Positions 27 to 21,064 of a stretch of 21,064 bases of DNA are shown in pieces. Below the pieces are notes generated by a model. The model was not told the origin of the DNA and made no database searches. It saw only the letters and a list, made by a program, of their open reading frames with translations. A program made the translations under genes and the position numbers. The stretch is from a virus. Position 1 is the stretch's first letter. The number at the start of each line of letters is the position of its first letter. The stretch spans positions 1 to 21,064 of the IMG/VR virus record IMGVR_UViG_3300042387_002516; one strand, 5' to 3'.

Positions 27-239
27 ATGAACGTAAACGAATTAATGAACATGAACGACATGTACTATGTAGGAAACATATACGATGTAGACGGTGATGG
101 TTGGGTATCAAAAGCTGAGGCGCAAGCCATATTGAATGAATTGGGTATGGGTGATAATAATGGGAACTCAGGCGGATACGGTGACGAAACGCCAGCCGAG
201 TACAATAACATGAAGGTGCGTGTGGGAATGCGCGTGTAA
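27..239 (+). CDS. Small single EF-hand protein
   Basis: This 70-aa protein contains one canonical EF-hand calcium loop at residues 20-31, DVDGDGWVSKAE. Asp20, Asp22 and Asp24 occupy loop positions 1, 3 and 5, Ser28 is position 9, and Glu31 is the bidentate position 12; Gly25 sits at position 6 and Val27 at position 8. The loop is followed by a short helix (AEAQAILNELG) and a Gly/Asn-rich tail, and is preceded by a Met/Asn-rich helix. There is no signal peptide or membrane segment. Family knowledge says such loops bind Ca2+; that this one does is inference. A lone EF-hand usually dimerises or is structural. The ATG follows an A/T-rich leader with no Shine-Dalgarno, like other genes here. The downstream neighbour is a long non-coding stretch, so it is probably the last gene of its unit. 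The role is unknown. Confidence 0.7.
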   Translation: MNVNELMNMNDMYYVGNIYDVDGDGWVSKAEAQAILNELGMGDNNGNSGGYGDETPAEYNNMKVRVGMRV

Positions 240-283: not shown

Positions 284-354
284 TATCGGGACGATATCGG
301 TTGATAGCGATCCGATAGCGGTTTGATTGCGGAGTGCTCCCATGCTAATTGCGG
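284..354. repeat. Helically phased 10-11-bp degenerate repeat array
   Basis: Successive units are TATCGGGACGA (284-294), TATCGGTTGA (295-304), TAGCGATCCGA (305-315), TAGCGGTTTGA (316-326) and TTGCGGAGTGC (327-337). After one degenerate unit, TTGCGG recurs at 349-354. The consensus is TA(T/G)CGGnnnGA. The period of 10-11 bp equals one DNA helical turn and is not a multiple of three, so this is not a coding repeat. Internal complementarity also exists: TATCGG at 295-300 pairs with CCGATA at 312-317. A protein-binding array or a structured RNA are the two natural readings; neither is shown by the sequence alone. Confidence 0.5.
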
Positions 355-2724: not shown

Positions 2725-3495
2725 ATGTCTTATTACGATAATTATGATATATTTGCTGACGACGATAAGTTAGCACTTACTAAACGAGGTAAACCGCGTA
2801 AGCGTAAACCAAAAGAACCTCGTATCTATTTTACTCAAGATACCGAAGATGCTATTGTTGAGTATCTTATTACAGTTGATACTGCTGAGCGTAATCGCAT
2901 TTACAATGAGCGTATTGAATATGGCTTTTATAAATTAGCCGAGAATATTATTCATACGTTTAAATTTTATTATACCGATACTGATACTATTGAAGAACTC
3001 AAGCACGAGGTAATTACATTTCTGCTTGAGAAACTTCATTTATATAAGCCTGAGAAGGGTAAAGCATTTAGTTATTTTGGTACTATTGCTAAACGTTACT
3101 TAATCGTTTATAACGAAAACAACTATAAGAAACTTCAAGAAAAAGTTGATGTGGATGAATCTGATGAGGATCAAATGCACTTATATGAGAACGATCGTAA
3201 CATAGAAAATATGTTAGACGGAAATGGATTTATGGATCAATATATTAAGTATATAGATACTCATTTATTTAAGTTATTCCCAAAGAAACAAGACGCTCAA
3301 ACAGCAGACGCCATAGTTGAATTATTTCGCAAACGTGAAACATTAGAAATATTTAATAAAAAGGCATTATACATTTACATACGCGAAATTACCGACGTAT
3401 CTACTCCTCAGATTACTAAAATTATTAAGAAACTTAAAATCATCTATGTCCAGCTGTATAATGAATATTATAAGCACGGCCATATAAAGATTTAA
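2725..3495 (+). CDS. gp55-like sigma factor for late transcription
   Basis: The protein has 256 aa. A basic N-terminal patch (RGKPRKRKPK, 21-30) precedes a helical sigma region 2-like domain (about 60-130) containing LHLYKPEKGKAFSYFGTIAK (104-123), the F-x-P-x-x-G-x-x-F-x-Y-F pattern shared by phage late sigma factors and sigma-70 region 2. An acidic linker follows (VDVDESDEDQ, 141-150). The C-terminus has a helix-turn-helix-like stretch (214-238, with EITDVSTPQITKIIKKLK) resembling region 4. T4 gp55 is 185 aa and lacks a true region 4, so this protein is longer. Its expected role is to redirect host RNA polymerase to late promoters, in T4 together with gp33 and the sliding clamp; I see no gp33 here. 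An AGGA sequence precedes the ATG, a rare Shine-Dalgarno-like start in this window. The gene lies directly before the baseplate block. Confidence 0.75.
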   Translation: MSYYDNYDIFADDDKLALTKRGKPRKRKPKEPRIYFTQDTEDAIVEYLITVDTAERNRIYNERIEYGFYKLAENIIHTFKFYYTDTDTIEELKHEVITFLLEKLHLYKPEKGKAFSYFGTIAKRYLIVYNENNYKKLQEKVDVDESDEDQMHLYENDRNIENMLDGNGFMDQYIKYIDTHLFKLFPKKQDAQTADAIVELFRKRETLEIFNKKALYIYIREITDVSTPQITKIIKKLKIIYVQLYNEYYKHGHIKI

Positions 3496-16282: not shown

Positions 16283-17269
16283 ATGTCATTTTCAAGATAT
16301 AACCCAGAAGATTCAGTAATTAGCTCCGAAACCGTAGTACGTGGTTTGTGGAGTGGAGATAACAACACTATAGGTAACTTCTTTACAGCTAGTACTTATA
16401 CAGAATATTACTTAGATGTTTACAATAACTGTGAATTGTGTTCTGGTTCTTCAGTACAATTTTCAATCCAATATGGTAACATTAGTGGCAGAGGCTCTAA
16501 ATTGATTAACTCTGCTGTAACTGGTGCTTCACCTTCTCGTATCGTATATGGTGAGTATAGAAATCTAGTTTATGGTACTGAAGATGCTTATTTTTCTTTT
16601 GATAATGGTGCTACAACAGGAAGTGATATTTTTGTTATTAATGTAGCTCGTAATCGCTACAAAGAATCTTTACTACCAGGTTCATTTAATTTAACTTTAA
16701 CTAGTGGTAGTAGTACAATTAGATTAACAGATGATAGTGGTACTACAAATTTAACTCGTTATATTGGTGAAAATAGAGTATTTTACATTATTAGTGGTAG
16801 TAACGGTACTGGTTGGAATGCAGCAGCATCATCTTCTTATTATGGAATGATGTTCCCTGATTTAGATATTATTGTTTTAAATGCTACTTCTTCAACAACA
16901 GTAAATTTATTACCTTATTTTGCTCCATTAGGAACAGCTACTGGTTCTGCTCAAAACAATCATATTAAACTTTACAATTCAATAGTAGCAGGTTCTTCAT
17001 TCCAATTAAGATCTCAAGAAACTGTTTCTTCACGTTATTTCTTTACAAGAGTAAAGAATAGTGATTTTAACTATACAACAAACCCATCTGTTATAGATGC
17101 AAATGGTAACTTATTATACACAACTTTAATTAACAATCCACAAACATACGTTACAACAGTAGGTATGTACAATGATAATAATGAGTTATTGGCAGTTGCT
17201 AAATTAAGTAGACCATTAACAAAAGATTTTACCAAGGAAGCCTTAATTAGAATTAAATTAGACTATTAA
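16283..17269 (+). CDS. Conserved tail/baseplate appendage protein (328 aa)
   Basis: In this 328-aa protein residues 60-100 (VQFSIQYGNISGRGS, then SPSRIVYGEYRNLVYGTED) and the C-terminal block (SRYFFTRVKNSDFNY, TYVTTVGMYNDNNELLAVAK and LSRPLTKDFTKEALIRIKLD, about 250-327) are strongly patterned. They resemble a structural protein common to T4-like phages of marine and freshwater bacteria. The middle (120-250) is beta-rich. No enzyme motif is present. The position after the 15612 gene, with an 8-nt gap, and before the Thr-Pro proteins suggests it links the baseplate to fibres or adhesins. Homology to a specific T4 protein (gp8 or gp10) is possible but not shown. Confidence 0.6.
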   Translation: MSFSRYNPEDSVISSETVVRGLWSGDNNTIGNFFTASTYTEYYLDVYNNCELCSGSSVQFSIQYGNISGRGSKLINSAVTGASPSRIVYGEYRNLVYGTEDAYFSFDNGATTGSDIFVINVARNRYKESLLPGSFNLTLTSGSSTIRLTDDSGTTNLTRYIGENRVFYIISGSNGTGWNAAASSSYYGMMFPDLDIIVLNATSSTTVNLLPYFAPLGTATGSAQNNHIKLYNSIVAGSSFQLRSQETVSSRYFFTRVKNSDFNYTTNPSVIDANGNLLYTTLINNPQTYVTTVGMYNDNNELLAVAKLSRPLTKDFTKEALIRIKLDY

Positions 17270-17272
17270 TGC

Positions 17273-18715
17273 ATGTCGGCGTTCAAAAAACTAAGCAAAT
17301 CAGACGTTACGGTCGTACCGTATGCCGCTAACAAGCAGTGGAATTTAAACCAGTGCTCGTATCCGACATCTTCAGAGTATTTTACAATTTATAAAGGAAC
17401 TAATTTAACAAGTAGTTTTGATGCTAATACTGACCCTATTACTGAAGGTCAATATGAAAGATTGGTTTATGCTCAAATAAATGAGTTATTTTACCAATCA
17501 TATTCTTCCTCTTTAGATACATCTTCATTAGCAAATTCATTATTTTATGAATCTGCTTCTCAACAACGCCCTACATCATCGTATTTTATATACAATGATA
17601 ATCCTAAATTAATTAAGAATTTTCCAACAGGAACTAACTCTAGTATTAGAGTACTTGCAATTAACCAAGATATATACGGTAGTAAAGTATTACCAAATAC
17701 TTTTGTTTTAACCTCATCTATATACAATATTACAGATGATGGTTTTGGTAATCTTTATTATTATGGTTATTATCATGTAGGAAATATATTTTATGCTCAT
17801 GGTTTAGCAATAATTACAGATCCTCTTTTTCAAGGAATATTCCCACTTCCAACACTAACTAAACCAGCTACTTTTACTTTTTATAATAATACTATAAATT
17901 CTAGCAGTATTGCTAGTTATATAGATAGCAGAGATACAACTGTTGATTACTCAACATTAATATTATCTGGAAGTCCTTATATTGTTCAGAGTGGAAGTAC
18001 AAATAATATTATTTTAAATACAACTACCCCAGGAACTTACGAAACATATTATAGTATATATGGTACAATAACAGGTAGTTGTGGAAATGTACTTAGTAAT
18101 AAAGCTAAAATAACAATTAATTTACTTAAAGTTACTAATTGTAATTTTGCTGCTTCTGCAACTTCTATAAACGTTGGATGTAATTTTACTTTAATTGCTT
18201 CTTCAACACCATTTACACCAACTCCTACTCCTACACCAACCCCAGTAGCAACTCCAACGCCAACCCCAACACCAACTCCTACGCCAACCCCAACTCCATC
18301 ACCAACTCCAACCCCAACACCAATAACAACCCCAACCCCTACACCTACCCCAACTCCTACATCATTACCACCAATACCAACCCCTACACCAACACCAACA
18401 CCAACTCCTACACCAACGCCTACACCAACGCCTACACCAACGCCTACACCAACGCCTACACCAACCCCAACACCTACCCCAACTCCAACTCCAACTCCTA
18501 CTCCAACTCCAACACCTATATGTACTTTAGCAGGTGAAATTACTTTACTAAATTGTAATTTAGCGGGTAATGTTTCTTTAATTCCTCCAACTCCGACTCC
18601 TACGCCAACGCCTACACCTACACCGACACCAACCCCAACACCTACACCAACACCAACCCCCACTGCAGTTCCTAACTGCGATTTAAACGGCAATATTAAC
18701 TTAATACCATCCTAA
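17273..18715 (+). CDS. Appendage protein with Thr-Pro tracts and Cys-motif cassettes
   Basis: In this 480-aa protein residues 1-190 form a compact domain ([18 protein letters not shown], then [20 protein letters not shown], and [20 protein letters not shown]) that probably attaches it to the virion. Residues about 200-290 look like an Ig-like beta domain ([20 protein letters not shown]). Residues 315-415 and 438-464 are Thr-Pro repeat linkers. Between and after them sit short cassettes built on C-(N/T/D)-(F/L)-x-(G/A): [39 protein letters not shown] and [13 protein letters not shown]. Thr-Pro linkers are extended and stiff in other systems, so this reads as a stalked adhesin-like protein with small knobs. 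Whether the Cys pair up is unknown. It starts 3 nt after the upstream stop. Confidence 0.6.
18215..18517 (+). repeat. Thr-Pro hexanucleotide repeat tract 1
   Basis: This coding tract of (ACN CCN) units has almost no G on the + strand. It is interrupted by VA, SP, ITT and SLPPI breaks, so it is a chain of sub-tracts. Synonymous third positions vary freely, which shows selection on the Thr-Pro protein rather than on exact DNA. Reverse-strand Gly-Val ORFs across it are shadows. Confidence 0.9.
18407..18466 (+). repeat. Perfect 12-bp tandem repeat inside Thr-Pro tract
   Basis: CCTACACCAACG repeats four times exactly (18407-18454), and a fifth copy (18455-18466) differs only in the last base (C for G). 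The surrounding tract is not homogeneous, so this block looks like a recent slippage or unequal-recombination expansion. Confidence 0.85.
18584..18664 (+). repeat. Thr-Pro hexanucleotide repeat tract 2
   Basis: This is the second (ACN CCN) coding tract of the same gene. It lies between the CTLAGEI...[10 protein letters not shown] cassette and the terminal [10 protein letters not shown] cassette. It is cleaner than tract 1, with no interruption until TAVPN. Confidence 0.9.
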
Positions 18716-18775: not shown

Positions 18776-19582
18776 ATGGCACTTCCTATAATAATAACTT
18801 TAACAACAGCCGGATCTGATACAGGCCCTTTTGATTTATATACTTGTACATCTAGTAACTGTACATCATGTAGTGGGTCTGCTTTTGCAACAAATGTACC
18901 TAGATCATCTATTACAGGAAGCGGTTATTCTACAACAGTACCTGATGGTACTGCTGCTATAAAAGTTGTATCAACTGGAGCTTGTACAAATAATGTTTGT
19001 CTTGTAATTCCAACACCAACTCCTACTCCAACGCCAACACCAACACCAACTCCTACACCTACTCCAACTCCTACACCAACTCCAACCCCGACACCTACCC
19101 CAACACCAATCCCAACTTCTTATTTATTCTATGCTGCCCCATCTAGTACAAATGCTACTAATGACTTTATTGCTTATAACCCAGCTGGAACTGGATCGAT
19201 TACATTTAGATATAGTGGAAGTAGTGAACAATTTGGTACATATATCGCAAGAAGAGTATCACAAAGTGATAGAATTACAGCTTATACACATAATGTATGT
19301 GCTGATAAAGCCTCTGTTACATACAATATGAATTGGGCACAAGGATCAACCCAATCAGCACCAGAACTTGCTGCTTACTTCATCCATCCAGTATCGATGG
19401 GTACTATAACTGATGTAATAGACACAGTAACATCTGCTACTTATGCAGTAGAACCTGTTGGAGGTCTTACTTCAAATGCTCAAAGTACATTTACTTATAA
19501 TGGAACCTCATACAGAATGTATAGATGGTTAGGTTTACAAACACCAGGAACAACAGCAACAATTAAAGTTAATACATGTTAA
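18776..19582 (+). CDS. Appendage protein with Cys-rich N-domain, Thr-Pro linker and C-domain
   Basis: In this 268-aa protein the N-terminal domain (1-78) is small and beta-rich (IIITLTTAGSDTGPFDLYTC, then GSGYSTTVPDGTAAIKVVST) with six Cys at 24, 29, 32, 70, 75 and the pattern CTSSNCTSC. A Thr-Pro linker follows (79-114). The C-terminal domain (115-268) is beta-rich (SYLFYAAPSSTNATNDFIAY, then YIARRVSQSDRITAYTHNVC, and STFTYNGTSYRMYRWLGLQT) and ends in NTC. The layout of a small attachment domain, stiff linker and distal domain suggests an adhesin or decoration fibre. The N-terminal 'TAGSDTGPFDLYT...GYxxxVPDGT' pattern looks like a recurrent phage module. It is followed 20 nt later by the S74 fibre gene. 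Confidence 0.6.
   Translation: MALPIIITLTTAGSDTGPFDLYTCTSSNCTSCSGSAFATNVPRSSITGSGYSTTVPDGTAAIKVVSTGACTNNVCLVIPTPTPTPTPTPTPTPTPTPTPTPTPTPTPTPTPIPTSYLFYAAPSSTNATNDFIAYNPAGTGSITFRYSGSSEQFGTYIARRVSQSDRITAYTHNVCADKASVTYNMNWAQGSTQSAPELAAYFIHPVSMGTITDVIDTVTSATYAVEPVGGLTSNAQSTFTYNGTSYRMYRWLGLQTPGTTATIKVNTC
19010..19117 (+). repeat. Thr-Pro hexanucleotide repeat tract 3
   Basis: This (CCN ACN) coding tract links the two domains of the 18776 protein. It ends with an Ile-for-Thr break (PTPIPT) before SYLFYAAP. It is the second gene in a row to carry this low-complexity DNA. Confidence 0.9.
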
Positions 19583-20458: not shown

Positions 20459-21064
20459 GTGAGAATAAACGGTTATTTAGTAACATGGGATGATTTAGCC
20501 ATAATGGGCACCTTGATTAATCCATCTAATCCAGCACCCACTGGTGATAAAATTGTTACTAAAGAAGAAGGTTTAACTTATTACCAATTTCAAACAACTC
20601 CTTTAGAATCATATACTTCTAACCAATGTCCTCCTTATGAGGCTTGGGTAGCTATAGTAGCAACCCCAACACCAACACCTACTCCAACACCTACTCCAAC
20701 CCCAACAGGTACCCCAACACCAACCCCTACACCGAGTCCAACTGAAACACCTACACCCACACCAACTCCTACTGTTGCAACTCCAACTCCAACAGCAACT
20801 CCGACGCCAACTCCAACACCTACTGAGGCAACTCCGACGCCAACGGCAACCCCTACACCAACACCAACACCTACTGAAGCAACTCCAACGCCAACTCCAA
20901 CTCCAACCCCTACACCAACACCAACTCCAACCCCGACACCAACTCCAACTCCTACTGCAGCGACTCCAACACCCACACCAACTTCTACTGTAGCAACACC
21001 CACACCAACCCCAACACCAACACCAACAGCAATAACACCAACTCCAACTCCTACACCTACTCCT
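20459..21064 (+). CDS. Partial appendage protein with very long Thr-Pro tract
   Basis: The ORF is open to the right edge (202 codons, no stop). I favour GTG 20459 ([16 protein letters not shown]), which follows an in-frame TAA by 3 nt and lies 7 nt after the S74 gene; ATG 20504 is the alternative. Residues 1-68 form a small domain ([20 protein letters not shown], then [13 protein letters not shown]). From residue 69 to the edge the sequence is Thr-Pro repeats interrupted at intervals by short Ala/Glu/Gly breaks (TG, SPTE, TVA, TA, TEA, TAA, STVA, TAI). The short attachment domain plus stalk resembles the 17273 and 18776 proteins, so the distal domain should lie beyond the window. Confidence 0.65.
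20663..21064 (+). repeat. Thr-Pro repeat tract 4, interrupted and with higher-order repeats
   Basis: This tract has at least 402 nt of (ACN CCN) units with periodic non-Pro breaks. Longer DNA repeats are present: GCAACTCCGACGCCAAC occurs at 20795-20811 and 20828-20844, with a one-mismatch copy at 20879-20895. These show duplications larger than the hexamer. Confidence 0.85.

Follow-up and report, generated by a model that had tools for sequence, protein, structure and literature searches.

Origins of replication in plasmids and phages commonly couple phased iterons, ~18–20 bp long in lambda and P1, with an AT-rich opening region. The PhoB/OmpR family recognises tandem 11-bp sites, with two to four units per operator, and activators typically use arrays placed a fixed distance ahead of a start site. 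The parC site of plasmid R1 is made of 11-bp iterons in series, in two sets that flank a promoter, and the recognition sites of terminases commonly lie near the terminase genes. An intergenic pac site has a precedent in the large myovirus ICP1, for which a late replication origin near the pac region has been proposed, and an iteron-bearing origin has been shown in a phage satellite (PMC7145576). The viral element described here shares with iteron origins of the lambda, P1 and RepA_N type its serial in-register direct repeats, a strand-biased neighbour that may count as AT-rich and its single copy, but its 11-bp units are shorter, their sequence differs completely between genera and no adjacent initiator gene was recognised. 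With PhoB/OmpR-type operators it has in common 11-bp direct repeats whose short conserved cores precede a promoter-like box, but it comprises five to six units with another core sequence and no adjacent response regulator. R1 parC is similar in its serial 11-bp direct repeats, whereas a single array is present here and no parM/parR partner was noted. Like ICP1 pac, the element occupies an extensive gap between genes of a large myovirus, but the terminase genes are distant from it.

The window, that is, the whole stretch of DNA analysed (21,064 nt), is a linear 21-kb virus fragment that carries genes for tail and baseplate. Three different tail-region genes contain long Pro-Thr (PTPTPT) repeat tracts (18215–18660, 19009–19117 and 20661–21063). 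Positions below refer to the plus strand unless a feature is marked as unstranded. The preliminary description of this DNA had placed six repeat units between 284 and 354, and the letters bear out all of its positions: TATCGGGACGA at 284, TATCGGTTGA at 295, TAGCGATCCGA at 305, TAGCGGTTTGA at 316, TTGCGGAGTGC at 327 and TTGCGG at 349, with spacings of 11, 10, 11, 11 and 22 between unit starts. Its consensus with a CGG core applies to most units, the core of the third (305) being CGA. The hairpin reported beside the repeats (257–272) is indeed perfect (TCGGGC-ATAC-GCCCGA) and stands right after the last early-type gene; its sequence is not conserved in relatives. The reported GC-enriched island is also present, with a GC content of 0.52–0.55 around the repeats that comes down to ~0.31 at 475–600.

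Identity at lag 11 across 284–354 was 0.47, compared with a mean of 0.25 in dinucleotide shuffles, none of which (0/5000) reached the observed value; P was 0.007 when the best of lags 6–22 was taken. Periodicity of the segment 303–365, tested alone, gave P = 0.0005. Tandem Repeats Finder made no call on the 284–354 array, a consequence of its degenerate units. When out-of-frame periodic windows with GC ≥0.40 were ranked genome by genome, the array came first or second in three genomes and eighth in another (G001).

Related loci were fetched by means of the conserved gene at 2725–3495, the EF-hand-like gene at 27–239 and the DNA core AATTGCGGTCNATCGACGG, of which 53 viral contig stretches have a single copy each. 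Bacterial contigs totalling 257 Gb match the same core pattern exactly at six places, roughly as often as chance predicts, and an occurrence of the element in host DNA was rejected on this ground. A search of plasmids for the element gave no match, and a direct search of phage records yielded short chance matches only. Profile searches produced 107 placements, which were reduced to 70 distinct alignable sequences, and 85 loci were used for gene context; the searches thus located ~85 related elements in viral contigs. The element is single-copy, with one convincing copy in every large contig. Three of the large relatives have circular maps of 169–179 kb (end overlaps of 87 or 127 nt) and one more measures 155 kb. 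Element-lacking relatives, in which gene 2725 is ~60% identical, showed no convincing 11-bp array, several of these contigs being incomplete, and no comparable array was found in Mel-JY01. The nearest isolate suggests a host in the Bacteroidota.

Alignment of the relatives, the check that the preliminary description had proposed, revealed repeats that are kept, spacing that is fixed, linker bases that drift and no compensatory changes, which supports its reading of an array for protein binding that is phased to the helix and either iteron-like or cooperative. The repeats it described are real, but its extent of the array was not that of the conserved part, which spans 303–365. The upstream units at 284 and 295 (284–302), present in the window, are variable or absent in relatives: positions 295–302 carry 6–21 substitutions per site, in columns that are gapped in several relatives. 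The conserved 11-bp phased core (GATAGCGATCC GATAGCGGTTT GATTGCGGAG TGCTCCCATGCTAATTGCGGTCCATCGACGG, 303–365) forms a 63-bp block that is essentially gap-free in the 70 aligned elements, apart from L073 and L079, which diverge most. Conserved triplets recur within it at 307 (GCG), 318 (GCG), 329 (GCG), 340 (CCA), 351 (GCG) and 362 (ACG), several of them preceded at four bases by a conserved G (303, 314 and 336); this series includes two in-phase slots that had been overlooked, the invariant CCCA at 339–342 and the core ACGG at 362–365. Substitutions counted on the tree number 0–4 at the triplets and 5–22 at linker positions. The strongest period of the conservation profile is 11.0 bp, with P = 0.001 by permutation and 0.02 by block permutation; when all periods from 6 to 20 were scanned, P was 0.30, which is not significant.

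The element is non-coding. A conserved reading frame, one of two results that the preliminary description had named as refuting its interpretation (the other being relatives without the repeats), was not found over the block: each frame is closed in at least some of the relatives, and the substitutions have no codon-phase bias. Coding on either strand was rejected; the minus-strand open reading frames over the island (up to 146 aa) are not kept in relatives.

A spacer of near-constant length (366–429) separates the core from a palindromic box. The start-to-start distance from GTCCAT to TATATA is 77–81 nt in 68/68 elements measured, and box 1 begins ~64 bp past the core. Box 1 (GTATATACGCATATAC, 430–445, unstranded) is near-invariant in its conserved form GTATATACNNATAT (430–443), which is found once in six of nine large relative contigs and twice in one, the exact form being absent from the other two; it is near-unique per genome and almost specific to the element. 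Further downstream lies a conserved G-poor module rich in C and in A/T tracts (461–540), with a G content of 9.6% over 52 distinct relatives and a GC skew within the lowest 0.1–0.2% of genome windows in three of four genomes (5.5% in the fourth). The G-poor, T-tract-rich module is conserved, but downstream GC is ~0.30–0.37, near the genome average. Phasing of A-tracts is modest (95th–97th percentile in three genomes). At 541–552 (unstranded) the window carries GGATATATGTAT, a variant of box 2, which reads GTATATAC or GTATATAT at this place in most relatives, and an extra copy of GTATATAC (614–621, unstranded) lies at the 5′ end of a small downstream open reading frame (606–785). The whole conserved element extends to about 540–620.

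In all four large genomes the element comes directly after the last of the small genes, at the junction of a small-gene zone and a late module; the labels 'early' and 'late' derive from what the genes encode and from the promoter cassettes. That last gene in the window (27–239) encodes an EF-hand-like 70-aa protein whose match to EF-hand_6 is weak (E 2e-4, under the Pfam cut-off), and its relatives are found upstream of the element elsewhere. The tiny genes of the upstream zone each come with a promoter-like cassette, near-identical from gene to gene: TTTGTCAAAATTTTTTTATTATATTTAATTAATAAAATTAAAA..ATG in G005 (−3000 to −400) and CGTATATTCACGGTATAAAATTAAAT..ATG in G001 (−3200 to −600). These cassettes resemble Bacteroidota promoters. 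A generic promoter-like motif, TATATTTAT, is scattered genome-wide and ~15–55-fold enriched in gaps; ATATTTAT/TATATTTA, ~14–55-fold enriched in the intergenic gaps of G001, G002, G003 and G005, is likely a general promoter motif of the phage group. The generic motif TATATTTAT differs from box 1, and a copy of ATATTTAT just past box 1 in the window (about 449–456) is absent there in most relatives. GC-rich GGGCGTCT/CGGGC repeats and hairpins were seen 50–200 bp upstream of the element in L094, L101, L105 and others, and differ among close relatives.

Downstream of the element stands a dense module with baseplate, primase, terminase and capsid genes. The genes directly after the element differ between relatives (85 loci). 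A gene for a T5orf172/MUG113 (GIY-YIG-type) protein (793–1281 in the window) adjoins it in 76/85 loci, and this nuclease was ruled out as an obligate partner because the element occurs without the gene in L063, L079 and L081. The product of gene 2725–3495 matched no Pfam or PHROGs family; we presume that it resembles late sigma factors. In all four genomes the detrended cumulative GC skew has its maximum at +44 to +2200 bp relative to the element. By bacterial convention such a maximum denotes the terminus rather than the origin. Furthermore, nearly all genes in the large relatives share one orientation, so the skew may simply follow transcription; the maximum thus marks a boundary and was rejected as proof of an origin.

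Flavobacterium phage immuto (MW353175.1), a cultured relative, is without the element by sequence. Directly after a small gene that ends at 74,128, however, it has an 11-bp array of other sequence, GAGGTCAAGGT GACGTCACGGT GAGGTCAAGTT GAGAGAAGTTT GATAGTTAAGTT (five 11-bp units, 74,146–74,212), with a lag-11 identity of 0.55 that was as high in 0/5000 shuffles. When only windows with GC >0.30 are compared, it ranks first among the out-of-frame arrays of the genome, but by a narrow margin, so position and layout outweigh rank as the argument for it. The order is a hairpin with a T-run, the array, ~70 bp, a palindrome, a C-rich G-poor stretch, T-tracts, a second box and a gene. The hairpin with its T9 is terminator-like and stands at the place matching 257–272, the palindrome GTATATATTTATATATAC is the analogue of box 1 with the form GTATAT..ATATAC, and the skew maximum of the genome is at 74,325. 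The region is conserved in 14 loci that share the next gene (immuto and 13 immuto-like contigs), and the array, fully covered in ten of them, has no indels in those ten. The layout of immuto recurs in a relative further removed (L226), and a possible third clade (L248) gave P = 0.0015 from a single sequence. Because immuto combines the same layout with other units, period and layout persist where the unit sequence changes. The 12-bp ACCCG arrays of immuto were also considered as the analogue and were dropped for the 11-bp array at the matching junction. Besides the 11-bp array, two non-coding arrays of ~12-bp ACCCGTTnnnnn units lie within 66317–66900 of the immuto record (L203:16317–16425 and 16765–16900), with lag-12 identities of 0.49–0.57; the ~310 bp between them are C-poor and contain GTATATACGATGTG.

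Together, the fixed helical phase, the free linkers, the near-unique palindrome at an unvarying distance and the turnover of units between genera fit a protein-binding DNA array. The prediction that the element is cis-acting DNA, a helically phased array of protein-binding sites, is well supported. We favour a role as a candidate replication origin, to which we assign a probability of roughly 0.4. A phage-encoded or host protein would bind successive 11-bp units on one helix face over ~six turns (303–365), and the bound units would build a single nucleoprotein complex whose targets, at a set distance, would be the palindromic AT box (430–445) and the G-poor T-tract stretch behind it. The array would thereby provide initiator-binding iterons, and the box with the strand-asymmetric AT stretch would be the opening region; protein binding, cooperativity and replication start as the outcome are what we infer. 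Direct repeats in helical phase with conserved spacing, as in iteron origins, are present, and the single copy, the place at the junction, the nearby (if ambiguous) skew maximum and the matching layout in immuto also speak for this role. Against an origin, the replication genes lie 85–112 kb downstream, there is no exceptional AT-rich island except for the G-poor bias, and no initiator gene was recognised among the searched neighbours.

It is possible, if rather unlikely, that the element is a transcription switch, in which a phage activator or repressor on the array would control a promoter located at one of the two boxes (box 1 or box 2) for the change from early to late genes or the opening of the late module. 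Its place between early-type genes with their own promoter-like cassettes and the late module would fit such a switch, as would boxes 1 and 2, which look like −10 elements, box 2 being just upstream of the next small open reading frame. Box 1 is nearly unique, however, unlike the generic promoter-like motif, and the variable genes directly after the element would be odd for a dedicated promoter. We consider it improbable that the element is a packaging start, at which the terminase small subunit would bind the array and cut nearby to begin headful packaging: a single-copy, non-coding site with short-repeat arrays, the circular maps of the three complete relatives and the intergenic pac site of ICP1 (PMC7145576) are consistent with this, but the gene for the terminase large subunit is 39–50 kb downstream. 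A centromere-like or DNA-organising site, for example a ParR/parC-type iteron array that anchors replicated phage DNA, would match the plan of R1 parC with its serial 11-bp iterons, and is very improbable given that no ParM-, ParR- or TubZ-like gene was recognised among the searched neighbours and the phages look lytic. Least credible of all is a structured non-coding RNA or transcript leader whose hairpins yield the period as a by-product, a reading largely refuted by the comparisons, since the GC-rich island folds as RNA at −58 kcal/mol but only to an ordinary degree (z −1.3, and −1.1 for the other strand), Rfam and tRNA scans gave no match, RNAalifold on 53 sequences returned a consensus of −0.59 kcal/mol with zero compensatory pairs, no pair covaried significantly against a tree-based null (invariant positions carrying no covariation power), and the 11-bp spacing is rigid and indel-free.

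Returning to the candidate origin, we tentatively propose that across a broad group of large phages of Bacteroidota type one nucleoprotein control site at the early/late junction may govern the start of replication, or else the early/late change. Its 11-bp helical register and layout would be preserved while the unit sequence is replaced by genus, a pattern that co-evolution of protein and site would produce. The search rule that follows from the layout, an 11-bp array, ~65–70 bp and a palindromic GTATAT..ATATAC box at an early/late junction, has already worked across genera, and the phage group has a cultured member in Flavobacterium phage immuto (record position 74,146–74,580). For nearly all large uncultured phages the origin, the packaging site and any master switch are still unmapped, and the element offers a precise, testable candidate for such a site.
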